This document shows, piece after piece, positions 3,101 to 64,000 of a DNA stretch of 64,000 bases (the first letter of the stretch is position 1; each line of letters starts with the position of its first letter). Both the position numbers and the translations under genes were made by a program. Under the pieces are notes generated by a model. That model was given only the letters and a program-made list of their open reading frames with translations. It searched no databases and was not told where the DNA came from. Source of the stretch: Argopecten irradians (taxonomy: Eukaryota > Mollusca > Bivalvia > Pectinida > Pectinidae); NCBI RefSeq assembly GCF_041381155.1, contig NC_091143.1, positions 40,254,996-40,318,995 of the forward strand, read 5' to 3'.

Positions 3101-6100
3101 TATTGAATATGTTTGAAATATACTGTAATGAGTGGAAACTTACGGTTAATACGCAAAAACTAAAGTTGTTATATTCTCAAAACGGAAGTATCAAACACGT
3201 TTGCGTTTTTTATTTTGCAACGAAGAATTAGAAATATTGGAATCTTTTACATACTTCGGCATTTTATTTAACTATAATGGTACATTTGCTAAAGCAAAAA
3301 GTAAATTAGCGGAACAGGCGAAAAAAGCTTTATTTGCTGTTTACAAAAAATAGAAGTATCTCTCTGCCAGTTGATTTACAACTGCAGATTTTTGACACTC
3401 TGATACAACCTATCCTTTTATATTCTGTTGAAGTATGGGGTTTTGAGAATATTACTATTATTGAAAAAATTCACTTGCAATTCTGTAAACGTATCTTAGG
3501 TTTGACACCTAGTACACCAAACTTTATGGTCTATGGTGAATTGGGTAGATATCCTTTTATATTCTGTTGAATTATGGGGTTTTGAGAATATTACTATTAT
3601 TGAAAACATTCACTTGCAATTCTGTAAACGTATCTTAGGTTTGACACCTAGTACACCAAACTTTATGGTCTATGGTGAATTGGGTAGATATCCTTTTATA
3701 TTCTGTTGAATTATGGGGTTTTGAGAATATTGCTATTATTGAAAAAATTCACTTGCAATTCTGTAAACGTATCTTAGGTTTGAGACATAGTACACCAAAC
3801 TTTATGGTCTATGGAGAATTGGGTAGATATCCGTTCAGTATTGAAGTGAAATGTAGAATGGTCATGTTTTGGTATAATTTAATTTCCACTGATAAATTGT
3901 CAAGCAAAATATATAAACTAATGTACCAATTGGATGTAAATGGAAACATAAGTTTTAAATGGATCGATTTTGTGCGAAATATTTTTTATGACACAGGCTT
4001 AAATTTTGTATGGAATATACAGGAATCTTGTACATTGAACAAAATATATTTAAAATTTACCATTAAACAAATACTTAAGGATCAATTTATTCAAAGGTGG
4101 TTTATTGATATGAATTTGTCATCAAATTGAAACTGAATGAAAAAGATAGAAAAAATATTGTTAAATTTCGTACTTCTAATTTACATTTGCCCATAGAAAC
4201 GGGACGATGGGCTAATATACCACGCAATGAAAGAATTTGTCCCCTTTGTTTCAACGGTATTGGTGACGAATTTCATTACTTATTTAATTGTACTCACATA
4301 TCAGTTCATCAAATTAGGCAAATACATATACCAAAATATTATTTTACGAACCCTAATCTAACAAAAATGAAAGGTCTAATCTCACTGTGTAACGTACGTA
4401 TTCTTTCGCAACTTAGCAGGTTTATTGAGAAATTAGAGAAATTAATTTATAATAATTAGATCAATTAAGTCCATTATATTCTGTATTATACTTATGTTGT
4501 GTTGATTGTATTATACTAATGCTATGTGTTCCGTCATGTCAAGCATGTCTGCAGGTAGGGCGTTAGAATTGTACCTGCTGCCCCTATTGCATGATCGTAA
4601 AAGGCGACTAAATTTAGGATCTTATCTTTTCTATTCTTCCTAACTGACTTTATCCTTCCTAATGCCTCCCTTGGCACCGCCTCATTTTTGGCCTTGAGTT
4701 GAGCGTTCGCCCCTGTGAGGAAGGCTCTGGGTTCTGTCCCCTGGCCGAGACACACCAAAGTCTGTAAAAGTGGTAGTTTCTGCTCCTGCTTAGCGCTCAG
4801 CAAAAAGGGAGTGGGACGACTGGTTCGCCCGTTGTCAGTATAATGTGACCGGGTGGGGTGTGTTGCTTGGTGTCTTCGGCCGCATGCTTCAGTGATATAG
4901 CACTATAAAAAGGGCAACAGTTCCACTATACAAGAAGACACAACATGAATATACCGCAGTCTCCCAAAACACGCACCTCGCACAACATACACGCAACACA
5001 CCGCATACATGGGAGGCCGTCCTTACATGACCATTGTGTTCCGTCATGTCAAAAATTGAATCAAACAAACAAACAAAATCAAAAATTCTTTTTGTAATAC
5101 ACTGATTTGACCTCTTGTTACATACGTAAGTGTGTCAGAGCGTAATAAAGAAATCTGAAACTGAATCTGAAATCTGAATCTGGTATAAAATCCAAAGACT
5201 TTGATTAGTTGTTCAAATACGAATTTATTGAATCACTTTTCTATGAGTCGGAAGGCGATTTCCGCAGTGTCCGAAAATCGACCCGTAGAGACCGAGCTCA
5301 ATATCCTAACTGATTACAAAATATGAGGCATGGAATTAAATGTACAATCGATACAATGGGTGACACCTGGCATGTACATTGTATATGCATGACTCTATTA
5401 TGGCTGGTCGGTACTCGGACAGGTGAGATAATTTGCTTATCTATTGTCTGAGTCGTAAGTGTCATAGTACAAGTAAGACCAGTTTGGATAATTAACTTCA
5501 AAGGGTGGATGAGTTATAAAAACGCAATGAATAAATTACAATTAACCATATGTTATATATAGAGTAATTAACTGAAATAGACGTGAATAGATACATGTAC
5601 ATGTACAAAATGTAGCTTTAAAATATCATGTCACTGATGAAAATAAAGTAACGAAAGTTTGTGGAAATCAAATTAAATAATACTGAATTAAAATTTTAAC
5701 CAACGTTCAAAAAATACATAATGTAGCACTTATATCATACAATTCTTCATGATATAAACACGAAACGTTTGCGTACAATTTACCAACATTGAGTTTATCA
5801 TCTCATTAACTTAAAAAAGTCAACCAAAATTAGAAATGAACTTTAAATAAAATATAGACTACTAATACAAGCCCGCTAGTTCGCAATTATTGTTCTGGAA
5901 AAATGACTTATTATAACTCTACCATCATGAAACATAAAAGTATGCAAAATATTAATGTATTAATCGTGTATTTGTACAAGTGTGAAATGTCAAAGGTTTC
6001 CTGACATGCTGATTGGAATGATAATTAATGCCTTACGCTACAAGTAACCCACATAGACGATAGATATCGCTCACGGTCATGTAACACTACAGACATATGA

Positions 6101-8548
6101 AAAATATGCTGTAGCAAAACCAAGAACAGAGTGGTTAACGCTTAGCATACCGGAAGTGTGACGACTGGTCCGCCCGTTGTCGCCATAATATGACCTGGCG
6201 GGATGAGTTGCTTGGTGTCTTCGTCAGTATGCTTTAGTGATATAGGACTATATAAAGGCCGAGAGTTCCACTATACAAGAAGGCACAACACCAATATACA
6301 ACGCCTTGCCAAACCACGTAACATTCACTTAAACTTGCTTTAAACAGGGAAAACCCAGAAGATAAAGACCATGACCTTATTCATCCAAATCACCAAACTC
6401 ATTTGACCATTAGATGCAATCATCTTACTTGTTACTAAGAAGACCACGAAATTAACGAAAAAGGGGGCCAACGTGTGGTTAAAAAGGGAGGCAAGGTCAA
6501 TTCGATTATCCTCTAGACTTAGTTTACAATTCAAAACTTGAAGTTGTTATTAAACAACAATGTACCGTGTCATAAATATTTTATATTATTTTTACACTGA
6601 ACACTCGGACATTTAAGATAAGCGTGTTTGTTTCATTGAAGAACAATTTCAAACACGAATGTAATTTGTCAGGCATTCACATGAAACAACTTTGTTTCTT
6701 TCATTTTCAAAATAGGCCTAAATATAGGTAGTCCCCCGGTGCCGTACTGAAACAGACGTTCTAGTCAGTCTGTGTAGTGTACGGCCACTTCGTATTTTGT
6801 AATATGATCAGTTTCCAAAATTAAAGTAATTTCGATAGTAGTCTTTCAATAAATATGTCAGCGTTATGTTTGCAAAATACGAAAACCGAGCACGTTTGTA
6901 CTACCACGTATCGTGCCGTAGATGCCTGCTAGCTGGGATTTTCTTGGTTACAGGATATTTTTATCACGGGAAATCCCGCCCGGAAACAAAGAATAGAAGT
7001 TTTGAACAAGCGCATTGCGGTCGTGACCTCACTTCCGCGCACATGTCTGCAAATATCAAAACAGGTTCTCCGGTAGTAAACGGCACTCAGACGACGATTT
7101 GATTTTACTAATAAACGGCGGATTCTTCTGCACGTACGTTATATTTCTATCGCTCTTGAAATTGCTAGTTGCATTTGATGGTCCAATATAACGAACGGCG
7201 ATATCGAGAAATAGACTTGTGGGTTCCTTTTTGTCAATAAATAACTAACGTTACGATAATACGTAAAACACATGTACAGAAGTGAGTTTTATTCACCACA
7301 ACTTGCGATACCTACCTGTAAAACAATAACAAAGGTGTACCCATATTGTTAATTGATTTCACTGTGTACACACGGTCGTCCACGCGGCCATAGTGTGTGT
7401 AGCTGATTACCTGTCAGTCGGCAGTAACGAAAACATGTGTCCCTATCAACAGAATTTGGCGATATTGACGAGGTCATTATAGTGTTATTTTAATCATTTG
7501 TTCCTCAAATGTGATGGCTGATGGCGGTAGGCGGGTTTGGCGATATAACGGGTGTATCTGTATGAAGGGAAATCCGTTCTGAATAAATTCATGGCGATAA
7601 GCGAGTTTGGCGGTAAAACGGGTGGCAATATAACGGGGTTTTACTGTAGGTCAGTAGAGGTATTAGAAGTAAACACTCGTTAGAAATGTATGACAAATTT
7701 TATCATAAATATCTGTCGCCATCAATTCGAAAAGATAAATTGGCATATTATTGTATTATACATATTTAATTGTTTCCAAGGTAACGACAATCTCCACCTG
7801 CTGACTACAACCCCGAGGATCCTCCGAGTAGAACTAGAGGCCTGGGAAGGGGAAACAGGATATTCCCAGTACTCTACATTCCAAGTGGCAGATGAAACTC
7901 AGAATTACGAACTTCTCGTTCAAGGATTCTCTGGAAACGTGTCTTGTAAGTTTTGTTGTGTTTTTACTATTGATTGGCTCGTTATGAGTATGGATGGAAA
8001 GGGTACGTTTAGTTTTGAATGTTGTCAAATAAAGTTATGTTTTTATCACATAACTTGCCTATGTCATACGGCCATGTCATAAATATCTTAAGACACATGT
8101 GTAATAACACTATTATAATGTCACATATAGATTTGATGTGATAATCCATGAGACGAAAACGTCACATTTGGGCCAGATTTCTACTATAAAAGTTATGTGA
8201 AAACTAAAATCTCGAAGCTAATCAAATTATTGAACTTATTTAATGAATGTCAAATTACTTATGCACTCATGGAAAATCATTTTTTTTTTCTCCCATTTTA
8301 AAGATGATGCTATGAGCCCCCACAGCGGCGCTGCCTTTACCACATACGATAGAGACAACGAACAATACAGTGCTGATAACTGTGCCTATCATTGCCATGG
8401 TGCTTGGTGGTACACAGGCTGTTTCGCCAGCAACCTGAATGGAAAACATATCGGACACCAGCCTTGGACGAGGATTGTCTGGTGGTACTTCCCAGTACCT
8501 AATGAACAAGCTAATCCCCTGCGGAAAACCAAGATGATGATTCGATGA
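114..8548 (+). CDS. Fibrinogen-related protein, C-terminal exons (5' part outside window)
   Basis: Three exons join in frame: 114-210, 7781-7945 and 8304-8548, giving 168 residues and a stop. All boundaries have AG/GT sites and the phases match (97, 165 and 245 nt). The first exon reads [16 protein letters not shown] and ends EGFW-like (GEFWIG), the classic start of the fibrinogen C-terminal domain. The second carries [10 protein letters not shown]. The third carries the calcium-loop-like TYDRDNEQ, paired cysteines in [21 protein letters not shown], and the terminal KTKMMIR. Such domains bind sugars or acetylated ligands in secreted ficolin, techylectin and molluscan FREP proteins; a recognition role here is inferred from the family. 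The N-terminal exons, and therefore any signal peptide, coiled coil or Ig domain, lie outside the window. AATAAA overlaps the stop codon (8548-8553), so the 3' UTR could be very short. The 7.6-kb intron holds a LINE and SINEs. Confidence 0.9.
3411..3827 (+). repeat. 139-bp tandem triplication inside the LINE
   Basis: The segment beginning TATCCTTTTATATTCTGTTG occurs three times, starting at 3411, 3550 and 3689, so the unit is exactly 139 bp. It encodes [13 protein letters not shown] through [11 protein letters not shown]. Because 139 is not a multiple of three, each added copy shifts the frame. The first two copies are nearly identical and the third differs slightly more, which suggests a local duplication after insertion. 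Confidence 0.9.
4543..5034 (+). mobile_element. SINE-like element inserted in LINE 3' region
   Basis: A 492-bp insertion is flanked by a perfect 18-bp target-site duplication, TGTGTTCCGTCATGTCAA, at 4525-4542 and 5035-5052. The body contains a central stretch (GACGACTGGTTCGCCCGTTG, then TGCTTGGTGTCTTCGGC) that recurs at 6130-6330. It ends in GTCCTTACATGACC, the tail also seen in the SINE at 58541-58719. The long duplication and the shared tail indicate LINE-machinery insertion. The family resembles widely distributed molluscan V-type SINEs (RUDI-like); that name is a recollection, not a match I could run. Confidence 0.8.
5182..6129. other. AT-rich intron, nothing recognised
   Basis: This stretch of the fibrinogen-related gene's intron is AT-rich, with no convincing exon, repeat array or element boundary. 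Confidence 0.5.
6130..6330 (+). mobile_element. SINE fragment, same family as 4543-5034
   Basis: The segment from GTGTGACGACTGGTCCGCCC through TTGCTTGGTGTCTTCG to ACTATACAAGAAGGCACAAC matches the central and 3' parts of the SINE at 4543-5034 at clearly lower identity. The head and the tail are missing, so this is an older, truncated copy. Confidence 0.75.
6331..7780. other. Intronic stretch with a short diverged duplication
   Basis: No gene is recognised. At about 7510-7650 two diverged copies of a GC-richer motif recur (GGCGGGTTTGGCGATATAAC and a related GCGAGTTTGGCGGTAAAACG), each followed by GGGT and an ATAACGG run. A GC-richer patch at 6870-7100 has no convincing coding pattern. Confidence 0.4.
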
Positions 8549-17667: not shown

Positions 17668-20512
17668 ATGGCCTATGTGTAAAAAAAGCGCGCGACGAAG
17701 GGAAACGGGCCGTAATAGTGAAGGACAAACTCTATATCGATGGTAACCAGCTGTATACAGCCCCATATAAGCATGCTATGTGAAAAGCCCACAGAAAGGA
17801 CGAGCTGGGAAAAATAGGAACACGCAGAAATTGAAAAAGAGATATTTAAAGATAGTCTCGTGGAACGTTAATGGTAGTCTCAATAATAAATTAGATGAAA
17901 AAGCTTTTACTAATTATATAAGTACATAAGATATTGATTTTTTTTTTACCGAATGTTGGAAAGCAAATGATTTTTCTCTTACCTTTTGCGGATATAATTG
18001 TTTTTGTATCCCACGAAAATTGACAAGATACGCACAGGGGGGAGTTATTATTATTTAGATTAACCAACATCTTAAAAAAGTGTCACAGTTGATAAAATAC
18101 TTTTTTTTATACAATAGCCTGGATAAAATTAAATGAAGTATCACTAGGCAGTGAAAATGATCTATATGTAGCGGGTGTATACATCCCTCCTGCCAATTCC
18201 AATTACATATGTACTATCAGTATTATAATTATGATTTATTTTTTGAACTTGAAAGCTGTATTACTGAATATTCAAGTAAGGGTAATGTTATGGTTTTTGG
18301 TGACTTGAATAGCAGAACACGCATGGATGACGATTTCATTAGATAAGATTATATAAATCAGAATATGTAACAACATTTGCAAAGATTTATTACATATGAT
18401 ACAGATGTTGACATTGACAAAAGAATCAATTCTGACACTGTATTGAATGAATATGGTACAAGACTGTTAAATATATGTAAGGCATCTGGCCTAAGAATAA
18501 TGAACGGAAGAAATAAATTTACTTTTTCCAGTGATTTTACTTTCCATGGTAGAAGCGGTATGAGTGTAATTGATTATCTTATTGTGCATCCCCAGCTAAT
18601 TTCAATTATTGATAATTTTATTGTCTGTAGTTTCACAGAATTTTCAGATCACGCTCCTCTACATATCCAAATTAAATCAGATTTATCTGGTACGTGTGAT
18701 AATGTTAATGGAGATCTGTCAGGTACTAAGAGGTCTGTGTATAAATGGGACGATGGTTTTAAGAATCAATGTGTTACAACAATACGTGATAATATTGATA
18801 GGATTAATGCAAATACAAAATAGCAGAGAGGAAGCGTAAAAACATGTATAGGAAGGTATAGAAGGTGATATATTGGACCTTTTAAGGAAACATAACCCTA
18901 GATATTTTTATAAAAAAAATTCTTCTAGAAAACGAGTGAACCCAACAGCACATGTACATATTTCTGATTTTTATGATCATTTCAAAGAGCTATCTGTTAA
19001 TAATAATGATCAGGTTCACCCTGATAATACGGATGACTCTACTGTGTTTGAGAATAAACCCATTACCACTCAGGAAATTGAAAAGGCTAATAGGGGTTGA
19101 AAAGAGGTAAATCTCACGGCCTGGATGACATTCTTAACGAATATCTTATCGATTGCAGTACATACTTGAATCCTGTTCTTAATAAAATTTTCAATTATGG
19201 TTTGAACTCAGGTTTTTTCCCTGAAGCTTGGTCAACTGCTGTAATTATACCAGTTTATAAGAAAGGAGACCGTAGTGACCCTGCCAATTATAGAGGTATT
19301 AGTCTTCTTAGCTGTATGGCAAAACTTTTTACATCAATTTTAAATAATCGTCTTATACAATGGTCGGAATCAAACAGTGTTGTTACTGATGCCCAATTTG
19401 GGTTTCGCCCTGGATTAAGTACAGTTGATGCTATTTTGTGCTCCATTCTATTATTACTAAATCTCTTAATGACAATAAAAGATTATTTTGCTGTTTTGTG
19501 GATTTAAAAGAGCTTTCGACTCAATAGATAGATGCAAATTGTGGTTTAAATTATCTCAACTTGGAATTAGAGGAAACTTACTCACAACTATTAAATCAAT
19601 GTATAGCCAAGTAAAATCTTGTGTAACTATAAATGGGAGATGTTCAGATTTTTTTGTAAACAATATGGGCCTCGTTCAAGAAGAAATTGTGTCACCGATA
19701 ATGTTTTCGTTGTATGTTTATGACTTTGAAAACTATTTTACAAAACATGGAATAAATGATTACCAATTTGGTGAGTTAAGTCTTTTTCTCATGATGTATG
19801 CTGATGATTTGGTTTTGTTTGCAGAGTCTGCCATGGATTTACAGGACATGCTGGACAACCTACATAAATATTGTGAAACGTGGAATCTTAACTGTAAATG
19901 TAGAAAAGAACAAATATAATGGTTTTTAGAAAAAGTGGCAATTTACGTAAAGAAGATTGTTGGTTTTATGGCGACAAGCAGTTGGAAGTTGTAGACCAAT
20001 TTACGTATTTGGGAGTTCTTTTTAGATTTAATAAGTTTAATGCATTACAAAACAAGTTGTCAGAACAAGGGCAAAAGGCTGTTTTTGCTTTGTTTTCAAA
20101 ATGTAAATCTGTGCAATTGAATTTTGTTACTCTTTTAAATTCATTTTATACATATGTTAACAGTGTATTAAGTTATGCATCGGAAGTCTGGGGTGGCTGT
20201 AAAGCTCCAGATATTATGTTAAAAGATATTACATGTTAAAAAAACAACATGCAATGTAATGGTTTATTATGAACTTGGGCGTTTTCCTCTTTTTTACGAC
20301 AGAAAGTATCGTATGATAAAATACTGGTTGAAAATCATAAATTTTAATAACTGTATTTTAAAAACTGCCTATAATGCTTTATTGAATTTACCAAAATCGA
20401 GCAATGTATTTAATTGGGTAGAATTTGTTAAAGATATATTGTACAGTCATGGTTTTGGTGATGTTTGGATAAACCAGCATCCAGTTGTTCCTTCAAATAT
20501 TTTACCGAAATA
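17668..20512 (+). mobile_element. Decayed jockey/CR1-like LINE, second copy
   Basis: A short upstream frame ends KDKLYIDGNQLYTAP (likely end of ORF1). The APE endonuclease follows (LKIVSWNVNGSLNNKLDE near 17850, VYIPPAN near 18177, VFGDLNSRTR near 18295). The reverse transcriptase carries AWSTAVIIPVYKKGDRSDP and NYRGISLLSCMAKLFTSILN near 19290, QFGFRPGLSTVDAIL near 19400, FKRAFDSIDRC near 19505 and YADDLVLFAE near 19798. Several frameshifts and stops break it. The GVRQGE-type motif is altered to GLVQEEIVSP. The C-terminal knuckle seen in the first LINE is missing, so the 3' end is lost near 20512. Confidence 0.88.
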
Positions 20513-29100: not shown

Positions 29101-32100
29101 GATGGTACCAGTAATTAATGGAGCCCCAAAACTGACATGCCATGCACTCATCTTATTTTGTTTTATTCATTTGTTTCACATATAATGGCTTGACTGAAAA
29201 TAAATGAGAGATGGAACTGAATTCTAGTTGTCATTAGTTTGCATCAGCCATTATTGACCTACCATTATTAGTTTAACCCTAGAAGATGATATGTTCCGAT
29301 CAGAGTTATTCACTATTTCCGCGTTGATGATGATTGCCTCCCCTGGTACGTAACCAGAACGATCTATTCTGAAGTTCGCCGTAACAGGGCCAGTAGCACA
29401 ACACAGACAGCATATCATCTTAGAGTCCTCAAGCTGGGCTGGCATCTAAAACATCAGAAATGTTATTACATTATATACCATAATGGTTCCACAATTGTTT
29501 GAATAATTACATAAATGAATGTAATTGGCATTAATTTAAAATTTCAGTGCATAACAGTGACAATTTTTCAAAGTTATGGAATTAAGTACCTAATTGTTTA
29601 GCATCACCATGTATGTATCAATTCTTAATAAATAGTCATACATGTATTGATGGTATACATAATGTATTATGCTGAGGGCGGACCTGAACCAATGTAGCGG
29701 CCATCCATCCAAGAGCAGGCTAAGTTCATGTTTCTTCATTATGGTAAATAAATACCGACAATTATCCACACAGCCACAAAAACTAGCTATTTTTTAACAC
29801 ATTTAACAATACATGCCGATGCCAGGCCTGAACCAACGCAGCAGCCACCCATCCAAGAGCAGGGCCCAGCACCATAAAAATATTCTCAGACAGATTTTTT
29901 ACTCAAGTATGTGATTTCCCATAGGCTTGAGTAAAAAATTTGTCTGAGATAGTTTTATGGTGCTGGGTCCAGGCTGCACTCGACAGTCAACATTACTGAA
30001 CTACAAAACACACAGAAGTTTGCTTTTGGACTTTGTCACAGAGATGCCCATACCAGTATCCTATGAATCATTACAAATTATTACATCAAACTGCTTACCG
30101 CAGCATTAGGATTCAAGTTCAAATCCACGTGACTAAGTACTGTAAATGGATATTGTACTTTGTAGTCTTTTCCTTCACGGTCCACTTTGGCCTTGACATT
30201 ATACCTGATGTAACCATAGTAACTCTCAAATGAGGACGGCAAGTTTTGTGGCAAAATGAAATTAACCGGATAGCTATTGCTTCCTGGTTGCAGGACATAC
30301 CCTCCACTAACTGAAATGAGAAAGCAAGTTATTATAAAAAGAAGACTGCATGAATGCGATTTCAGACCATTCACTACAGGGTCCTTTTTTCTCTAGGAGC
30401 CAATAATAATTATGGGCCCCATTCCCAATGGAAATAATTTCAAATTTTCGTCAATCTCACAAAAAGAGGTAGTTTAATATGGGGGTTTCGAGATCCGAAA
30501 ACCACGTGTGAAAAGTATAATTTACCGTTGATTAGTCACACCTTCCTGTGATTATGATGTCACAAAACTCACGTCAAATGATGACTGGATGGTGGGACTA
30601 ATTGATGTTGAAATATACTTTACTCACGTCGTTTTGAGATTTTGAAATCCCAGTATTCTATGAAATCTGTTACTTATATTCCGATTTTCTTCCTAATATG
30701 AGGTACCGGTACATAATGTTTAAACTAACTGATCTGCAGTTGTTGAAATATACTTTTCTGTGTCATATTCAGATTGTGAACACATATATATATAATTAAC
30801 GGCTAGGTGATAATAGTGAGGTCCACCATTGTACTATCTGAGCAAAAGGGAAATGCTAGAAGGCAACTGTATCATCATATGTACCTGTACTATACAATTA
30901 AAATCTGCAGTGCTACGTACATGTACACTATTACTCCCCCCGACCACGGTTCTCTCTCCAAGGAAGCCTCAAATATAGCTTCTACTTGGAGTGGTCTAGA
31001 TCCATATGGCCCAGAATATAACAAAAGTCTGCAACCCCGGACTTAATTACTGGTCCACTGTTCTACCATGGCCAACTGGGCAAAAGGGAAATTACCCTTA
31101 CCCCTATAGGGAAAAGCTAAAAGCTAAGAAGGCAACCTTAATATCCACTATGTACATTTGCAGCGCTGTTACAACAAGCGTACGTGTGACGGCCAGTCTA
31201 GTAGGTGGTTCGATCACTTGATTGGTAGCTAGTCAGGTTGCATGGTAGCTAGTCAGTTTGCCAACGACATTCAATAAGCTGTGTAAGCAGGGCTCATTGG
31301 CTGTCGCTTCAATGTAGGGGCGGAGCTAAAACAGTTGGAAATGTCTGTCGTCGATTACTTCATAAAATGATTGGCATCCCGATGTATCAAAACCGTGTTT
31401 GATCGGAATATATTCTGATAAGACATATTCTATTGTCAGCCGTACCTGATTTGTTTTTCCACAACAAACGGACCTTGCAGCAGAAAAGTCAGTCAGAAGG
31501 TAAAACTGTAGCTAGATTCGGCTGTGACATTACATATAGCATTACAATGGATACAATAGATCTAAACCCAACACATTAACAAACACGATGAAAAGTTTGA
31601 TCCAATGGAACGTTGGTAGATACATATCGTCACGCTACAGTATGACAACTCCCCGAAGTCGAGAGAAATGGCCAATAATTTATGAACAAATCATCCTCAA
31701 AACATTCGCTTAAAAAGTGAAACAAAACAGTTACAAATTATTAATACAGTGATTGAATGTATACATTGTAAAAAATTAAATAGCACACAACGTGATCAAA
31801 CACATTGCACAACAGAGTCGGGTATGAACATCAAAGATCCGCTGGCTCCGCTTACTTCTCAATGTTGTCGCGTGATCGGCGATCTTATCAGTCAGGGGGC
31901 AATCAGTCGGGCTGCCGATGCTTCAGCCAATCAGTGCCTTCGTTACATGCCACCTAAAATCTAATCTACTGCATCAGTTACCAGCCTACTAGATCAGCTA
32001 CCAGCCGACGTGTCTATCGAGTGAATGAATGTAAACAGGAACACTTGTTGTAATGGCGCTGTAAACCCTCCTACACCTGCACATATGTACATACATGTAC

Positions 32101-46654: not shown

Positions 46655-48518
46655 TTATTTGACCCTATAGTCATCATGTTTCGTCCGTCGTCGTGCGCCG
46701 TCCGCCGTGCGCCGTCCGCGTTAACTTTTCACATTTTGAACTTCTTCTCAAGTTTGACCAGTGGGATTGAGCTGAAACTTACCTGAAATGATCCTGAGAT
46801 GGTCCCGACAAAGTGTTGTTATTTTTCGGGTCGATCCGAAATCCAAGATGGCCGCCACAGCCGCCATCTTGAAAACACATTTTGAACTTCTTCTCAAGTT
46901 CTACCGGTGCGATTTGGCTGAAACTTGCATGAAATGATCCTGACATGGTCCCGACAAAGTGTTGTTATTTTTCGGGTCGATCCGAAATCCAAGATGGCCG
47001 CCACAGCCGCCATCTTGAAAACACATTTTAAACTTCTTCTCAAGTTCTACCGGTGCGATTTGGCTGAAACTTGCATGAAATGATCCTGACATGGTCCCGA
47101 CAAAGTGTTGTTATTTTTCGGGTCGATCCGAAATCCAAGATGGCCGCCACAGGCGCCATCTTGAAAACACATTTTGAACTTCTTCTCAAGTTCTACCGGT
47201 GCGATTTGGCTGAAACTTGCATGAAATGATCCTGACATGGTCCCGACAAAGTGTTGTTATTTTTCGGATCGAACAGAAATCCAAGATGGCCACCACAGCC
47301 GCCATCTTGAAAACACATTTTGAACTTCTTCTCAAGTTCTACCAGTGGGATTTGGCTGAAACTTGCATGAAATGATCCTGACATGGTCCCGACAAAGTGT
47401 TGTTATTTTTCGGGTCGATCCGAAATCCAAGATGGCCGCCACAGCCGCCATCTTGAAAACACATTTTGAACTTCTTCTCAAGTTTGACCAGTGGGATTGA
47501 GCTGAAACTTACCTGAAATGATCCTGACATGGTCCCGACAAAGTGTTGTTATTTTTCGGGTCGATCCGAAATCCAAGATGGCCGCCACAGCCGCCATCTT
47601 GAAAACACATTTTGAACTTCTTCTCAAGTTCTACCAGTGCGATTTGGCTGAAACTTGCATGAAATGATCCTGACATGGTCCCGACAAAATGTTGTTATTT
47701 TTCGGGTCGATCCGAAATCCAAGATGGCCGCCACAGCCGCCATCTTGAAAACACATTTTGAACTTCTTCTCAAGTTCTACCGGTGCGATTTGGCTGAAAC
47801 TTGCATGAAATGATCCTGACATGGTCCCGACAAAGTGTTGTTATTTTTCGGATCGAACAGAAATCCAAGATGGCCACCACAGCCGCCATCTTGAAAACAC
47901 ATTTTGAACTTCTTCTCTCAAGTTCTACCAGTGGGATTTGGCTGAAACTTGCATGAAATGATCCTGACATGGTCCCGACAAAGTGTTGTTATTTTTCGGG
48001 TCGATCCGAAATCAAAGATGGCCGCCACAGCCGCCATCTTGAAAACACATTTTGAACTTCTTCTCAAGTTCTACCAGTGGGATTTGGCTGAAACTTGCAT
48101 GAAATGATCCTGACATGGTCCCGACAAAGTGTTGTTATTTTTCGGGTCGATCTGAAATCCAAGATGGCAGCCACAGTCTCCATCTTGAAAACACATTTTG
48201 AACTTCTTCTCAAGTTCTACCGGTGCAATTTCGCTGAAACTTGCATGAAATGATCCTGACATGGTCCAGACAAAGTGTTGTTATTTTTCGGGTCAATCCG
48301 AAATCCAAGATGGCCGTCACAGCCGCCATCTTGAAAACACATTTTGAACTTATTCTCAAGTTCTACCGAAGGGATTTGGCTGAAACTTGCATGAAATGAT
48401 CCTGACATGGTCCAGACAAAGTATTGTTACATCTCTGGTTGATCCCAAATCGAAGATGACTACCATGACACTATGTCTAATTAATTTCCTATATTTAAAG
48501 GCCCTTGGGCCTCTTGTT
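46655..48518 (+). mobile_element. Tandem-core element with 146-bp units and hairpin-CTTGTT 3' end
   Basis: The left end (GACCCTATAGTCATCATG) leads into a CGTCCGTCGTCGTGCGCC-type run at 46680-46725. About twelve units with a 146-bp period follow, each with AACTTCTTCTCAAGTT, GAAATGATCCTGACATGGTC, GTGTTGTTATTTTTCGG and CAAGATGGCCGCC...GCCGCCATCTTG. The right end is AAGGCCC-TT-GGGCCT followed by CTTGTT (48498-48518). The last unit is degenerate. No transposase is encoded. The architecture resembles the bivalve pearl elements and Helitron-associated tandem repeats known from oysters. Confidence 0.85.
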
Positions 48519-50673: not shown

Positions 50674-52968
50674 TTTTGTTTATTCGAAAATTTAGCAAAA
50701 CTCATATAGTCCGCGTTGTTTTCATTTTATCATGTTGTGATATAAGCTCTAGATCTAATCAGATGAAATGTCAATGAAGGCTTATGTAAAAAGATATATA
50801 TATAGAACGACAGAATATAGCGGACTATATAATATATGCAAATGTGTGATACAAGAGATCACAAAATGTGTATTCATATCCACACACCAGAAAAAGTTTG
50901 TTTCAGTTTCACATGTCTTAACAGTTACTTTCCTTGAATTAGCTGAAAGGAAATAACTGAAGTTAAACATGTGTCAGAGAAAACTGACTTTTGATTGAAA
51001 CATGTTTTTTACATTCAATGATTTTGTTTTAACACATTTTAATGACATTTTAAAACAAAATGTTTTCCTTCCTTTTATACAGGTCTATTATACATGAAAA
51101 ATGTAATTATTTTTGCTATATATGATACACATGTAGTTATACAGATCTATATAAATGGAAAAATAAAATAATAGATAGATAGATCTGGAATAGCATATTG
51201 AATTGTACCAATAAGGTACCCATGAATTCTACATTATTGTATTATCAAGTTTTATATTGATTATTATATTGTATACATACTTGCGATCCATAAGGCTTAA
51301 GTTGAATCCACATCACACTACAATACAAGAGTATATACAAACGGGTGCATATGTGTGTATAACTAACAATAAGTGAAGTTCCGCATGACTGACTTCAAAC
51401 CAAAATATCAATGGATCAGCATTCCCAACAGAGTTATAGGCCTTGGGAAATAATGGCAATGCCGGGGTACCAGCACCTGTACATTCATGTAGTTTGTGCG
51501 TCTGGGATTCCTTCTTCACTACTATATTAAATATAACTTTGTGACGTGAAGTATTGCCTTATCGACTGTTCTCAGGAAACACACATATCCAAATGGAATG
51601 ACATATTATACACAGAGGTAAGGTCAATGTCAGAGTTCCCGAGTTGTGCTATTTGTATAATGATTAGGATCGACATGACTATACGTTTGTAAGTAACCTA
51701 CGTTACTGCTTTAAACACCTCATTTGTAATATATGTTAGACTTTGGTGCATTAGGTGTGAACATTATCCGTACATATGGTATCATGTGTCTGTTAAAGTA
51801 ACTTGATGATTAAGAGGATTTTTTAGAAGCCCATATATAACTTCCTTGTAGTTTGGAATTTCCAATAATATCAAGTACACATGTATCGATTAATGTTATC
51901 CAACTTGAGATTTCGTTAAACTCACGGTACAGTAATTATATATAATGTTTCACATTAATATGGACACAGTACTAGTTGTTCAATAGGTAATTGCCTTAAC
52001 CACATGATTAGTGAAGTTTTCGTTTCTCATCTGTTGCAATATTTGTGATTATGTTTTCTTTAAAATGGGCCTATATATAGTTAAAGGTTGGGCTACTTCA
52101 GAATTTTATAAAATGTCAAGTCTTGATTTGAAAATTGTCGTTAAACTGTAATGAGCTTAATCACCTTTCGTACAACTGGACCCATATATATAGTATTTTA
52201 TTATTACATCATTATTGTTAATTTTAAACTGATTATTTATTTACAATTGTCTTAGGCCTATTTACATACAGTCCGCATATGGTTGCAAAGTGTACAATTT
52301 ATTTGACCCAGAATTTAAAAAAGTACCTTAATTATGTCAAGGTGCATTGCAAGGAAAAATATCTTGGCCTTATCGATCAGGTATTCAGGTTTTTATCAAT
52401 TCTTTATTTCTGGGTCTCAGGAGCTTGATTTCCATAACTAGCCGCAGCCGTTTAACTTCTGATGAAATACCTTCTGGTAAAGCTTTATTTCTTTACGCAA
52501 AAAAGCCATATATTCTTTTTGTTATTTAATTCAAGGATAGAAATAACGATGTAAAGCCACAATGAACTTTTATTGTATTCGCCAAGTCACACCATACTGT
52601 TTTTTTAATGTTAAATTTTATATGGTTTCGGTGGATCAGGCAATATATTTGTTTGACCCATGGAATACGCAGTTTAGAAAAACATAATTATCCTTATTTC
52701 GGAAAGGATATACACATTCATAAAACTTTGTTCAAATCGGATGAACTATACAAGCAGTTAACGAAACATTACGCTCAACTAAATTCTAATTCATCTTGAT
52801 TTTAATCACAAATAAAATGCCAATGCTGTTCTCTGCATAAAGCTTTCCTAAAATTCATTTTTTTTGCATTTTTCCCCAGTGCGTTCAATAAGTAAATAGC
52901 ATCATTCAATTCAAGTCATGATAACAAAATATTACTGCGTCATTACTATTTTTTCTTTTTTTTTTCAG
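50674..52968. other. Unassigned sequence upstream of the ankyrin-cGLR coding region
   Basis: No 5' exon could be placed. A short frame at 52608-52799 is open but unrecognised. A splice acceptor (T-rich tract, then CAG at 52966-52968) stands 14 bp before the start codon at 52983, so at least one untranslated exon and the promoter lie in this stretch or further left. Confidence 0.5.
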
Positions 52969-52982
52969 ATTTCAAAAGTACA

Positions 52983-55883
52983 ATGGCTGGGAATAATCAA
53001 TTTCAGGGACTATTCAAACTTCTTCACCAAAACACACCAGAAAGCATAGCCTGTGCTACCAGTGATCTCCACAAAGCCGCTACAACTGGTGACCTCAGTT
53101 TGCTGCAAGCGTGTCTGGAGAAGGATGACGTTAACATCAACCTCGAAGATGAGAGAGGGAATACTCCATTGTTCATGGCGACACTTAAAGGTCACAGGAC
53201 TGCGGTGGACATGTTATTACAGAAAGGTGCTGCAGTGAATGATACCAGCTGCAGTCCGATACATTATGCCAGAGATATTCATATTGCTAAGGCATTAGTT
53301 GAGGCTGGTGTCAGAATTGGGGACAGAAATTTCCAAGGAGACTCGCCATTGCACAGAGCAGTCGCAAGAGAGGACAATGAGGTTGTGTTCTTTTTCATTG
53401 AGCAAAGAGCAGACACGAGTGCCAAGAACGCAGAAGGTGCAACTCCCCTGCACAGCAGTTGCCAACATAAGATCGATGGTCCCATATGCGAGGTGATCAG
53501 GAAGTTGATTGCTGCAGGTGCAGATGTAAATGTTAAAGATAAAGCTGGAAAAACACCCCTACATCATGCATGTGAATGCTTGTCAATGTTTGATTCCATC
53601 GCTATCCTATTAAAGCACGGGGCTGACTTAAGGATGCATGACATGAAAGGATATTGCCCAATACATTATCTGATTAGCACTTTTCTTTCTTCAAATACAG
53701 ACAATGAGCATGATTTTATCAACAAGCTTGATATGATGTTGACCAACCAAGAAACCATCAATCTCAAAACTCTCACTGGACTAAATGCTCTCCATATTGC
53801 AGCGTCGTTTGGACTCTGCATAGTTATCAAGCATTTAGTACAAAAAGGATGCGACATCCTGTGCCAGGATGGTCGAGGCAAAAGTGTTCTACATCTCGTA
53901 TCGTCAGTTAAAGAGGAAAGAAACGTTATAGAAACAATACAAACATTAATTTCGTGTGGAAGTAACGTTAACTGTTGCGACTTTTGGGGTTATACTCCAC
54001 TACATGAAGCCATTGCAAACGGCAAGCGTGATGTAATAGAAATTCTACTAAGTAATGGTGCGGACATACAGCTTCCTGATAACAATGGAACAACTGCCTT
54101 ACATTTAGCTGCAGCAAGTTGTCATGAAGCGTTGCCTCTGCTGCTCTCCAGGGGCGCAACGGTGAATGCAACAAACAAGTACCTGTCAACACCTTTGCAT
54201 TTTTCTGCATGGGCTGGTTCAATGCTTGCCGTAGAAACGCTGATTAAAAGCGGTGCCAATCAAAAAATGAAAGATTTGTCAGAATATACACCCCATGACA
54301 CTGCAGTTTTCACATGCTCCGAAGTTGCTGAGATCCTTGAAAGCGAGAAAACATCACATCCAGTAAAAGCATTTTCAAATTATGCGAATAAATATATGAG
54401 TAAGAATGATTTCGAAAATCTGGTTTGTACGGATGAGAACGTGGTAAGGGTTCATTCTGATTTCGCCCATTTCTGCAACATCGTTTTTCAAACTCCTCGA
54501 GTAGGCCACGTTGTTTTTCGTGACGAAGCTCAAGAGATACAGTCTGCTGTAGAAAGTGTTGCCGAAAATATTGCAAAACAGGTAGCAGAGTTGGATCCAA
54601 TCTTCAAATCAACGGTTCTTCGAGCAGGGAGTTCCTCTGAGAATACAAAAACAAAATTTCCAAACGAGTTCGATTTTATGTTTTGTTTAGAGGAATTCAG
54701 CAATAATACTTATCCAGAACTCCAGGAAAGAGATGAGGCTCGAGTGTTAGGTTCCGAGCCTTTTTCTAAAAGGACATCAGCTGGAGGTCGTATTGGAGAT
54801 TTAGTGAATGATTTGGAACTAATTGAGGAACACGTTACCGTTTCTGACTACACCAAAATATATGTGAAAGATACGGTTGATGCAGAGCCTTTATTGGATC
54901 TTAGTGAGCGGGACTCAAGGTTGGTTCCTTGTTATATGATGTTTCACCGATTTAGTCAGCTTTTGACAAGAGTTCTTCTGGGCGAAAATTTCCCCAAACA
55001 CCCAAATCTCTTAATACAAGAGGTTACCCTTGAGCCTGCACTGTTATTGCAGTGGCGGGGCAGTGTGTACAAGGTGCTTGACATTAATGTGGATCTTGTT
55101 CCCGCCATCCGACTTCCATGCTGGCCAGAGAAAATCCGACGGGATTACAAACTCCTTACTTCGGATATTCTTAGCATCCCGGGAATGGCTGTGTCCAAAA
55201 TGGCAGGTGAATCATTTGAAGACCTGTGGCGTTGTTCTATGTCACTACAAGAAACTGCAATATTCCGAAAGCTACGACCACATATCCGCAACAGCTACAC
55301 AACTGCGAAAGCATTTCTCAATTCCAATATGATATGTCCGGTCGCGATAGAAGAAGAAACAGAAGAAACTGCTTTCATAAGACAATTTGCTAGTATGCCA
55401 TCGATGGATGACTCCGACGATGCTGTGTTTATTACATCTGCAGAAAGTGCTATTCCTTCATACTTTCTGAAAATGATGTTCTTGTTTTCTCTCGAAGACA
55501 AAGTAGAGAAGGAAGGACTGGAAAGTGTGTATGCTATTGATTCGCAAATGTCAAGCAGTTCCAACGCTGAAGAATGTGTAACAGTAATATACGAAAGGAA
55601 AAGCAATACCGACCATGGTTCATGCAGTCCGCCTTCAAAACGCAAAAGGCCATCATATTCGTACGGACCAGCTGAGGTGCGGAACATGCAACAGGACTCT
55701 ACAGACATTGATATAAATCTTGTCCGAGAAATCTATCGTAGGTGTGAAGTATGTCTCTCGGAGAGAAAAGTTCCTTCATTTTTCAATCCAAATCAAAACG
55801 TTCTTGGATCAAGGGCAGAAGAACTGAGATTAGAAATCGCACTCAATTATGTGAAGTTCATCAATAAACTGATTAAGGACTGA
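52983..55883 (+). CDS. Ankyrin-repeat cGAS-like receptor (Mab-21 domain nucleotidyltransferase)
   Basis: A single open exon of 966 residues. Residues 24-455 hold about twelve ankyrin repeats (GNTPLFMATLKGH at 59, GDSPLHRAVARE at 119, GKTPLHHACE at 189, GYTPLHEAIANGK at 336, GTTALHLAAASC at 369, STPLHFSAWAGS at 402). Residues 480-840 form a cGAS/Mab-21 domain. GSS (549-551) is the nucleotidyltransferase loop, NEFDFMF (561-567) carries catalytic E562 and D564 as in NEFDVMF of human cGAS, and INVDLVPA (701-708) supplies the third acid, D704. WRCSMSLQETAIFRKL (749-764) and SYFLKMMFLF (826-835) are the helical-lobe signatures. The cGAS zinc-thumb cysteines are absent. A basic SKRKRP (885-890) could be a nuclear signal. 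By family, it should make a cyclic dinucleotide upon ligand binding and signal through STING; the activity here is inferred. A splice acceptor ends 14 bp before the ATG. Confidence 0.9.
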   Translation: MAGNNQFQGLFKLLHQNTPESIACATSDLHKAATTGDLSLLQACLEKDDVNINLEDERGNTPLFMATLKGHRTAVDMLLQKGAAVNDTSCSPIHYARDIHIAKALVEAGVRIGDRNFQGDSPLHRAVAREDNEVVFFFIEQRADTSAKNAEGATPLHSSCQHKIDGPICEVIRKLIAAGADVNVKDKAGKTPLHHACECLSMFDSIAILLKHGADLRMHDMKGYCPIHYLISTFLSSNTDNEHDFINKLDMMLTNQETINLKTLTGLNALHIAASFGLCIVIKHLVQKGCDILCQDGRGKSVLHLVSSVKEERNVIETIQTLISCGSNVNCCDFWGYTPLHEAIANGKRDVIEILLSNGADIQLPDNNGTTALHLAAASCHEALPLLLSRGATVNATNKYLSTPLHFSAWAGSMLAVETLIKSGANQKMKDLSEYTPHDTAVFTCSEVAEILESEKTSHPVKAFSNYANKYMSKNDFENLVCTDENVVRVHSDFAHFCNIVFQTPRVGHVVFRDEAQEIQSAVESVAENIAKQVAELDPIFKSTVLRAGSSSENTKTKFPNEFDFMFCLEEFSNNTYPELQERDEARVLGSEPFSKRTSAGGRIGDLVNDLELIEEHVTVSDYTKIYVKDTVDAEPLLDLSERDSRLVPCYMMFHRFSQLLTRVLLGENFPKHPNLLIQEVTLEPALLLQWRGSVYKVLDINVDLVPAIRLPCWPEKIRRDYKLLTSDILSIPGMAVSKMAGESFEDLWRCSMSLQETAIFRKLRPHIRNSYTTAKAFLNSNMICPVAIEEETEETAFIRQFASMPSMDDSDDAVFITSAESAIPSYFLKMMFLFSLEDKVEKEGLESVYAIDSQMSSSSNAEECVTVIYERKSNTDHGSCSPPSKRKRPSYSYGPAEVRNMQQDSTDIDINLVREIYRRCEVCLSERKVPSFFNPNQNVLGSRAEELRLEIALNYVKFINKLIKD

Positions 55884-56350: not shown

Positions 56351-56489
56351 ATTATGGCCTGGTTGAGAGGGCACTATTGCCTCATAGTATTGTCTCTTGA
56401 TGAGATAGTGTCCTCGCCTTCGGCTCGGACACTATTCCATCCCTCGACAATACTATGAGGCAAAAGTGCCCTCTCAACCAGACCATAAT
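56351..56489. repeat. Short hairpin element
   Basis: Arms of 63 nt (56351-56413 and 56427-56489) are near-perfect complements, with ATTATGGCCTGGTTGAGAGG at the outer end and CTCATAGTATTGTC inside. The loop is TCGCCTTCGGCTC. Confidence 0.92.
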
Positions 56490-60623: not shown

Positions 60624-61996
60624 AAAACAGTACAGGCCCTGGAATCAAAAACAGTACAGGCCCTGGAATCAAAAACAGTACAGGCCCTGGAATCAAAAAC
60701 AGTACAGGCCCTGGAATAAAAAACAGTACAGGCCCTGGAATCAAAAACAGTACAGGCCCTGGAATCAAAAAACAGTACAGGCCCTGGAATCAAAAACAGT
60801 ACAGGCCCTGGAATCAAAAACAGTACAGGCCCTGGAATCAAAAACAGTACAGGCCCTGGAATCAAAAAACAGTACAGGCCCTGGAATCAAAAACAGTACA
60901 GGCCCTGGAATCAAAAAACAGTACAGGCCCTGGAATCAAAAACAGTACAGGCCCTGGAATCAAAAACAGTACAGGCCCTGGAATCAAAAACAGTACAGGC
61001 CCTGGAATCAAAAACAGTACAGGCCCTGGAATCAAAAAAACAGTACAGGTCCTGGAATCAAAAAACAGTACAGGTCCTGGAATCAAAAACAGTACAGGTC
61101 CTGGAATCAAAAAACAGTACAGGCCCTGGAATCAAAAACAGCACAGGCCCTGGAATCAAAAACAGTACAGGCCCTGGAATCAAAAACAGTACAGGCCCTG
61201 GAATCAAAAAAACAGTACAGGCCCTGGAATCAAAAAACAGTACAGGCCCTGGAATCAAAAACAGTACAGGCCTGGAATAAAAAACAGTACAGGCCCTGGA
61301 ATCAAAAACAGTACAGGCCCTGGAATCAAAAAACAGTACAGGCCCTGGAATCAAAAAACAGTACAGGCCCTGGAATCAAAAAAACAGTACAGGCCCTGGA
61401 ATCAAAAACAGTACAGGCCCTGGAATCAAAAACAGTACAGGCCCTGGAATCAAAAACAGTACAGGCCCTGGAATCAAAAACAGTACAGGCCCTGGAATCA
61501 AAAACAGTACAGGCCCTGGAATCAAAAACAGTACAGGCCCTCTGGAATCAAAAACAGTACAGGCCTGGAATCAAAAACAGTACAGGCCTGGAATCAAAAA
61601 GTAAGGCCTGGAATCAAAACAGTACAGCCTGGAATCAAAACAGTACAGCCTGGAATCAAAAACAGTACAGGTCTGGAATCAAAAACAGTACAGGCCTGGA
61701 ATCAAAAACAGTACAGGCCCTGGAATCAAAAACAGTACAGGCCCTGGAATCAAAAAACAGTACAGGTCCTGGAATCAAAAACAGTACAGGCCCTGGAATC
61801 AAAAACAGTACAGGCCCTGGAATCAAAAACAGTACAGGCCCTGGAATCAAAAAACAGTACAGGCCCTGGAATCAAAAACAGCACAGGCCCTGGAATCAAA
61901 AACAGTACAGGCCCTGGAATCAAAAACAGTACAGGTCCTGGAATCAAAAAACAATACAGACCCTGGAATCAAAAAACAGTACAGGCCATGGAATCA
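60624..61996. repeat. 24-bp minisatellite, about 57 copies
   Basis: The unit is AACAGTACAGGCCCTGGAATC plus a run of 3-6 A, so 23-26 bp. Variants include GGTCCTGG, a C-lacking GGCCTGG cluster at 61555-61690, GCACAGG and a CCTCTGG. The variants cluster, suggesting slippage and local block duplication. With 24-bp units the minus strand stays open and reads the octad LIPGPVLF, or FDSRACTV in the next frame; this is an arithmetic effect and not a gene. Confidence 0.95.
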
Positions 61997-62699: not shown

Positions 62700-64000
62700 A
62701 AATGTATTGATATTTTGGTCTGCCCTGATTCCATTCCTAGTATAGTTACTTTGATGTTTGCTTCCTTACTCATCTTACTTATACCTTTTCTGTCCTTTTT
62801 CTATTCTCGACCCACCTCTGCCTTGCCAATTATGCCATTGATTCCGTCATATGCTAAACTACCAGTTCTTGCACACAGTCCTGAATCTTGCATTGTCTTC
62901 TTCGGCATTACATAATGCCAGTCAGTCTATCGCTCTATCGTGCTCGAATTGGTAACTTCAACAACTGTGTTCAGTCCTCAAACATTGTCATCTATTTGAG
63001 TATCCTTAAGTCACTTTGTGTTGGGTTATTACTTCTGATTTTATTAATATATTTGTCATTTGTTAGGTCTCTAATCCATTATTTTCATAATAGTTGTCTT
63101 CGTAAGTTTATTAACATCATTTTTTCTACAGTAGATTTTTTCCCCCTTTTTTCTTTCTTTTTCTCGCTTATTCAGTGGCAACTACCTTTGTCCGGTGATA
63201 TTGAAATAAATCCCGGTCCTTCGTCTCTGAATTCATCTTCATCATCACTTTTTTCAAATATAAGTGAACAGCTTGACCTTGAGAATAATTTTTCATTCGT
63301 CCATCTCAACGTTCAAAGTCTAAATAAAAAAGTCGATATACTTTGTACCGAACTTAACAAATGCACTATTTTATCGTTTACCGAGACCTGACTAAAGGTC
63401 ACAGATATCTCTCCAGAACTCAGGCTGTAGGCCTGATCGTACTGGCGGTATATCTGTCTATGTTAAAGATACTATACCTGCAAAGCGTAGGCAAGATCTT
63501 GAATTACCAACCGAACTGATTCGCCCAATTTTTGAATATGGCGATATAATATGGGACAACCTTACCAAAACTCAATCAGATATGTTAGAAGATCTCCAGT
63601 TAGAAGCAGCACGGATAGTTACAGGTGGAACTAGACTTACTAGTAGGGTAAAACTATATCTCGAGACAGGCTGGCTTCCCCTAGAGCAAAGACGTTGACA
63701 TCACAAGATTATCCACTTTCATAAAATAGTTCATGGTCTCCTTCCACAGTATCTTCAAGTTATACGCAGCAACAACAATATTCATTATCATAATACTAGA
63801 TTAGTTAATAACTTCCGTCCACCTTCCTGTCGCACAAGCCTTTTCATGAAATCCTTTCTGCCATCTGTAATAAATCTTTGGAATGCACTTCCTGATGAAA
63901 TCAAAATCAGTCCCTCAATAACAAAACTTAGAACTCATTTAAACGCACAAAAATTCCAAGTCCCACCATATCATCTTATCGGCATTAGATTGGGTCAGAT
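62700..64000 (+). mobile_element. CR1-like LINE with N-terminal 2A motif, internally deleted (runs off window)
   Basis: The frame 62888-63391 opens with a hydrophobic region (about residues 25-50 and 70-85). It continues SGDIEINPGP (63191-63220), a 2A ribosome-skipping motif (D-x-E-x-NPG-P), and then a serine-rich linker into the endonuclease start NFSFVHLNVQSLNKKVDIL and SFTET. After a short break, 63426-63695 is one frame that passes from endonuclease GGISVYVKDTIPAKRRQDLE straight into the reverse transcriptase thumb region LIRPIFEYGDIIWDN, losing the rest of the endonuclease and the palm domain. The C-terminus continues (NLWNALPDEI) to the window edge after a single TGA. 2A motifs are documented in CR1-type LINEs of molluscs, sea urchin and amphioxus. 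Confidence 0.85.

Follow-up and report, generated by a model that had tools for sequence, protein, structure and literature searches.

Here we describe a gene of the bivalve Argopecten irradians in which an ankyrin-repeat array and a cGAS-like nucleotidyltransferase share one open reading frame. It lies at 52983-55883 (+) of a 64,000-nucleotide stretch of contig NC_091143.1 (RefSeq assembly GCF_041381155.1), hereafter the window, and encodes 966 residues counted from the ATG (995 from stop to stop). Its enzyme domain is acidic and keeps the catalytic triad in register with cGAS, three further loci of the genome combine the same two parts and group with it, and the genome also contains matches to the STING ligand-binding domain. 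The reading that we favour, at about even chances, is that the C-terminal Mab-21-type nucleotidyltransferase and the N-terminal ankyrin solenoid form an ankyrin-scaffolded cGAS-like enzyme, in which the array would capture or position a protein or other non-nucleic-acid ligand and so switch the enzyme on. Specificity would then come from the array, neither double-stranded DNA (dsDNA) nor double-stranded RNA (dsRNA) would be the activator, and the cyclic dinucleotide or related nucleotide made by the enzyme would signal through STING.

At the base composition of the window, 966 stop-free codons have a probability of about 4e-32, and the frame outranks all other window frames in length, the runners-up (469-470 residues) lying within a 24-bp satellite. 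A preliminary description, drawn from the letters of the window, had proposed an ankyrin array and a cGAS-like nucleotidyltransferase in one frame, and Pfam finds both parts there: Ank_2 with 181 bits (E 6e-54, cut-off 27.3) and Mab-21 (PF03281) at residues 553-762 with 26.9 bits (E 6.1e-6, cut-off 24.1). The earlier estimate of about twelve repeats agrees with the 12-13 given by Pfam and the full-length structure model, which has 13 ankyrin-type helix pairs at residues 19-452 at a predicted local distance difference test (pLDDT) of mostly 80-96. The parts of the gene are as follows.

52950..52968 (+): putative 3' splice site, a polypyrimidine tract (15/15 pyrimidines) and CAG, ending 14 nt 5' of the ATG (from the sequence)
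52983..55883 (+): coding frame of the ankyrin-Mab-21 fusion, 966 residues (frame translation, Pfam)
53067..54338 (+): ankyrin-repeat array, about residues 29-452, about 12-13 repeats (Pfam Ank_2, modelled helix pairs)
54339..54500 (+): linker, residues 453-506, mostly of low confidence (pLDDT <50 at 455-491 and 496-511)
54501..55292 (+): Mab-21 nucleotidyltransferase core including the spine helix, about residues 507-770 (PF03281 above cut-off, model, profile matches in the PDB)
54627..54674 (+): GS loop (G549-S550) with catalytic acids one and two, E562 and D564 (sequence, PDB profile alignments)
54693..54851 (+): insertion, residues 571-623, exceeding the three paralogues in length (alignment; pLDDT <50 in both models)
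55092..55094 (+): third catalytic acid, D704, in VDLVPAI (sequence, PDB profile alignments)
55293..55880 (+): C-terminal helical lobe, Mab-21_C-like, about residues 771-966, with SYFLK (residues 826-830) and PSFFNP motifs (Pfam below cut-off, profile alignment)
55626..55652 (+): SPPSKRKRP, a basic run within a C-terminal-lobe insertion of low confidence, resembling a nuclear localisation signal by inspection only (sequence)

Catalytic residues in a cGAS-like fold

In profile alignments against the PDB, G549-S550, E562, D564 and D704 are in register with cGAS and with Cv-cGLR1 of C. virginica (8gjw), and the residues had been numbered correctly in the preliminary description. A GS loop and three catalytic acids in register are among the features by which Li et al. 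2023 define a cGAS-like receptor (cGLR). Two solved chains bear on the identity of the acids. At the first two of them, 4kb6 (porcine cGAS with DNA, ATP and GTP, according to the entry title) carries Q and N, whereas its near-twin 4jlx, identical in sequence to 4jlz, also porcine by title, carries E and D; this difference fits E562 and D564 standing at positions of catalytic acids. The Q and N of 4kb6 are consistent with the usual inactivating change. Judged by its conserved residues, the enzyme is putatively active.

Cv-cGLR1 is the best solved relative when the enzyme half is searched alone (E 2.8e-4). A profile built from the enzyme domains of all four ankyrin types likewise places it first (6.8e-16), followed by 4jlx (8.8e-16), 4kb6 (1e-13) and other cGAS chains (4.8e-12 to 5.9e-10), and this four-row profile aligns throughout with the C-terminal lobe of cGAS chain 7ftn. 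By fold the order of the first two is reversed: Foldseek with an enzyme-only model returns human cGAS (E 3e-8) and Cv-cGLR1 (4.8e-8) as the best PDB folds, a structural homology of the kind expected of cGLRs and CD-NTases. Behind helix 507-537, the full-length model has one strand (562-569) that carries E562 and D564 and another (699-711) that carries D704; a further core strand runs at 541-548. The last two helices of the C-terminal lobe have pLDDT <50 in this model and mostly 50-83 in the enzyme-only model.

The context of the triad is common to Cv-cGLR1 and the window enzyme, including VDLVPAIR..CWP. The solved Cv-cGLR1 chain differs in having 355 residues and no visible ankyrins, and in a gap of 97 residues before the third acid, compared with 137 in the window enzyme. 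Vertebrate cGAS likewise has its nucleotidyltransferase core and triad in register with the window enzyme; the window protein is unlike it in its ankyrin array, its acidic enzyme region and its lack of a zinc thumb.

Four ankyrin-type loci in one genome

Across the 846 Mb and 1,508 contigs of the genome, a PF03281 search gave at least 77 Mab-21 matches, a lower bound because the window gene was missed. Twenty regions were fetched, namely the window gene, two loci matched by its enzyme half and 17 of the 77 PF03281 matches, and the four ankyrin types among them are a minimum. The three beyond the window lie on other contigs. On C6 (L013, 891 residues) and C9 (L016, 877 residues) the ankyrins precede the enzyme within one frame, and on C1 (L012 5553-8694) the two parts follow in the same order in two open frames with a 29-nt overlap. 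The C1 copy is interrupted in the assembly, through an assembly error or because the gene is decaying. The Mab-21 scores of C6 and C9 (29.3 and 29.7) are above the cut-off.

Searches with each of the four enzyme domains matched only these four loci: two queries found all of them, one missed C9 and one missed the window gene. The paralogous domains are 23-26% identical to that of the window, and 29 alignment columns are invariant across the four, including G549, S550, E562, D564 and D704. A tree of 15 Mab-21 proteins from the genome separates the ankyrin types as one group from the other 11 with support of 100/99; with C9, C1 or C6 omitted in turn, the remaining ones still group (100/99, 100/99 and 97/95). 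Branches in the tree are long. One old ankyrin-Mab-21 fusion would be the simplest account of the four loci. Full-length identity among the ankyrin types is 22-25%, and the repeats mimic each other, so that co-orthology of the arrays is not resolvable from it.

Among the other Mab-21 proteins of the genome, five large ones were scanned, of which three have TPR matches, all below the cut-off, and two have nothing further notable; L004 has Mab-21 domains only by Pfam. Single-frame Mab-21 proteins are many, often of about 680-740 residues, with six matches consecutive within 56 kb on C11 (1580590-1636488). L004 is similar in size to these and has no EFD-type stretch by eye, so some of these single-frame proteins may be inactive.

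The ankyrin fusion is not supported as a novelty. Li et al. already report ankyrin-fused cGLRs in animals, for example in the coral Stylophora pistillata (2023 preprint, PMC9980059), and the architecture is thus known. Compared by description and not by sequence, those proteins have the same two domain types per protein, and the ankyrins are proposed as an interaction module (PMC9980059). In the available text of that preprint we saw no functional data on an ankyrin type. Nor did the literature text available to us describe, as a group of its own, ankyrin types that retain the catalytic residues and are mostly acidic. Nor was an ankyrin-cGLR fusion found in the available text of PMC6321704, PMC9334734, PMC10732462 or PMC10299181, the last being irrelevant because its mAb21 is an antibody; in that of PMC13319465, cGLRs and ankyrins are named only in the reference list. 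Also in a mollusc, the DED-TRADD-N proteins of the oyster C. gigas join a Mab-21/cGAS domain to protein-interaction modules, with HEPN, immunoglobulin, DED, TRADD-N and TPR in place of ankyrins in the text available (PMC8195603).

Two contig collections of viruses, bacteria and archaea, uninformative on other animals, were also scanned. In the viral collection, profile A1 gave 78 pattern matches, none of them a relative at E 1e-3. The only locus to come from 65 pattern matches in the genome collection (L043) lies in a bacterial epimerase-like frame and was taken as a chance match.

Candidate activators and rival readings

The enzyme region of the window protein has an isoelectric point (pI) of 5.05 and a net charge of -18.5. 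Its acidity is not confined to loops, since the 253-residue confident core, with all low-confidence stretches removed, alone has a pI of 5.33 and a charge of -6. The enzyme regions of C1 and C6 are also acidic (pI 4.77 and 4.81). By comparison, the five non-ankyrin proteins with GS or GG...EFD among the fetched regions (L020, L023, L024, L025 and L029) are all basic, at pI 8.57-9.53; other Mab-21 proteins were computed and left out of this count. These include eight without the EFD motif, whose first ~420 residues are mostly neutral to basic (pI 5.93-8.95, L014 giving the sole low value), the two frames of L026 (8.59, with GS...EID, and 8.2), L028 (9.46) and L004 (8.05 for the whole, 6.56 for the first 420 residues). 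According to the main text of Li et al., dsDNA- and dsRNA-sensing cGLRs have pI >8.5, and acidic active cGLRs, down to pI 5.0, are proposed to respond to a ligand other than nucleic acid (PMC9980059). Pd-cGLR, which is auto-active at a pI of ~5.0 and for which such a ligand is proposed, is an acidic enzyme like that of the window (PMC9980059).

The preliminary description had argued against DNA sensing from the missing zinc thumb. The thumb is indeed missing: the pattern H-x4-6-CC-x4-8-C has no match in the window protein, and where 7ftn has its run of cysteines, the part of the profile that aligns there lacks them, which sets the protein apart from cGAS proper. As an argument, however, this is weak and says little on the ligand, because the non-human proteins aligned in a study of shrimp, Drosophila cGLR1 and cGLR2 included, lack the thumb too (PMC12928593). 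The acidic enzyme domain argues more strongly against nucleic-acid sensing; taken as whole-sequence values, the overall and core pI would speak against a basic DNA-binding surface. The ankyrin array may plausibly bind a pathogen or host protein.

The preliminary description had also suggested looking for a STING gene in the same genome, and matches to the STING ligand-binding domain (STING_LBD) were found on C14, three of them over the cut-off within ~37 kb. One part of the domain model is matched twice, which gives at least two copies, one with a stop in the matched stretch.

Several results count against an ankyrin-scaffolded cGAS-like enzyme with a non-nucleic-acid ligand. Mab-21_C reaches only 16.2 bits in the window protein (cut-off 24.1) and is below the cut-off in L013 and L016 and just above it in L012 (24.2), in which Mab-21 itself falls just below (22.6). 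Among the 50 Foldseek matches listed the TM-scores are moderate (TMq 0.38-0.43, TMt 0.50-0.59). The enzyme-only model has a mean pLDDT of 54.7 and is of low confidence outside the core, which puts active-site geometry beyond it, and the full-length model, with a predicted TM-score of 0.49, does not fix the relative orientation of ankyrins and enzyme. Acidity is not universal among the four ankyrin types, the enzyme region of C9 having a pI of 8.1. Finally, the literal cGLR motif of Li et al. 2023, h[QT]GS[X8-20][DE]h[DE]h[X50-90]h[DE]h (PMC9980059), is not matched by the window protein, which has A before GS and 137 residues, not 50-90, before the third acid. Counted from our alignments, Cv-cGLR1 departs from it as well, with S before GS and 97 residues in the last gap; since Li et al. 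assayed its activity (PMC9980059), the motif taken to the letter leaves out genuine enzymes. For this reason we file the window protein as a Mab-21/cGAS-like nucleotidyltransferase and term it cGLR-like.

Of the alternatives, a non-enzymatic scaffold, in which the Mab-21 fold and the ankyrins bind partners such as a TBK1/IKK-epsilon-type kinase, is unlikely though it has a precedent: the shrimp proteins LvMab21-1/2/3 are reported to bind neither dsDNA nor dsRNA, to make no cyclic GMP-AMP and to activate IKK-epsilon directly (PMC12928593). An acidic surface and ankyrins would suit protein binding, but the catalytic residues are kept in four of four ankyrin-type domains despite their low identity, which would be unexpected were catalysis dispensable. 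An ordinary nucleic-acid-sensing cGLR, with ankyrins that merely localise or oligomerise the enzyme, is rather improbable. The nearest solved relatives, Cv-cGLR1 and cGAS, point that way, as do the activation of a C. virginica cGLR by dsDNA (PMC9980059) and the basic C9 paralogue; the acidity of the window enzyme and its core stands against it, both set beside the nucleic-acid sensors of Li et al. and beside the five basic proteins of the same genome.

We regard it as quite improbable that the enzyme makes another nucleotide product or has a non-immune role, as an MB21D2-like or Mab21L1-like protein whose site of action the ankyrins choose. Its product is unreadable from sequence, Mab21L1 and MB21D2 are among the profile matches, and the ten-row profile A2, which includes the best PF03281 match of the genome (L030), scores Mab21L1 best (2e-80), but the ankyrin-only profile favours the cGLR1 and cGAS chains (6.8e-16 to 5.9e-10) over Mab21L1 (3e-5) and MB21D2 (0.0084). 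The least credible alternative, and a very improbable one, is a prediction artefact in which two neighbouring genes, or a pseudogene, are read as a single frame. The split C1 paralogue does indicate that family members can break; nevertheless, the window frame is unbroken, the same parts occur in the same order in single frames on C6 and C9, and C1 keeps that order across its two frames.

A narrower form of the favoured enzyme, in which the ankyrin-type proteins are a clade of protein-sensing cGLRs whose solenoid, on capturing a protein of pathogen or host, would gate the acidic enzyme directly, is a tentative proposal that we hold to be possible but doubtful. In bacteria, the CD-NTases of CBASS are gated by HORMA proteins, so that protein recognition triggers second-messenger synthesis; these are separate proteins without ankyrins, likened to the window protein by logic and not by homology, and the logic would be shared only as a possibility. 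If the proposal is true, the window protein would be a one-chain animal counterpart of such protein-gated CD-NTases and would belong to a class of cyclic-dinucleotide receptors independent of nucleic acid. In their main text, Li et al. name unknown ligands as a key limitation of their own screen (PMC9980059), and the ankyrin group may bear on what activates cGLRs that do not respond to nucleic acid. It is small, with a protein-binding array, conserved acids and an acidic enzyme in three of four members; this makes it a concrete candidate for a cGLR that senses protein, and the ligand could be fished for with the array as bait.

Gene borders and other features of the window

The gene had been described as one unbroken exon, which holds for the visible 966-residue part and probably not for the whole. 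The tract at 52950..52968 likely terminates an upstream intron: of 5,000 stretches of 160 nt drawn at random from the window, 0 equalled its splice-site score at 52968. Given this site and a frame that stays open from it up to the ATG, there is probably a further exon upstream, which could be coding, although the intron is most simply placed in the 5' untranslated region. The best acceptors of the paralogues have 12, 11 and 9 of 15 pyrimidines and are not unusual against background (7.6%, 19% and 59%), so they give no support to a 5' gene structure common to the four loci. Directly downstream of the gene, at 56351-56489, two inverted 68-nt arms, 85% complementary, flank a 3-nt spacer and possibly represent a small transposon.

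Elsewhere in the window, two frames at 7684-8545 (+) match the fibrinogen C-terminal domain in Pfam and are probably exons of a fibrinogen-related gene, and a frame at 30084-30392 (-) matching the arrestin N-terminal domain is probably also an exon. Frames at 62885-63998 (+), the first of which holds a 2A-like GDIEINPGP motif, appear retrotransposon-like; 62885-63388 has no Pfam match at E 0.01. Stop-broken fragments at 1140-4456 and 18371-20510 (+) resemble by eye the endonuclease and reverse transcriptase of a long interspersed nuclear element, with no Pfam match at E 0.01 for 1861-2724 and 18371-18820. At 60624-61996 the window carries the 24-bp satellite (57 copies), and at 46730-48458 a 146-bp unit repeated in tandem about 12 times.

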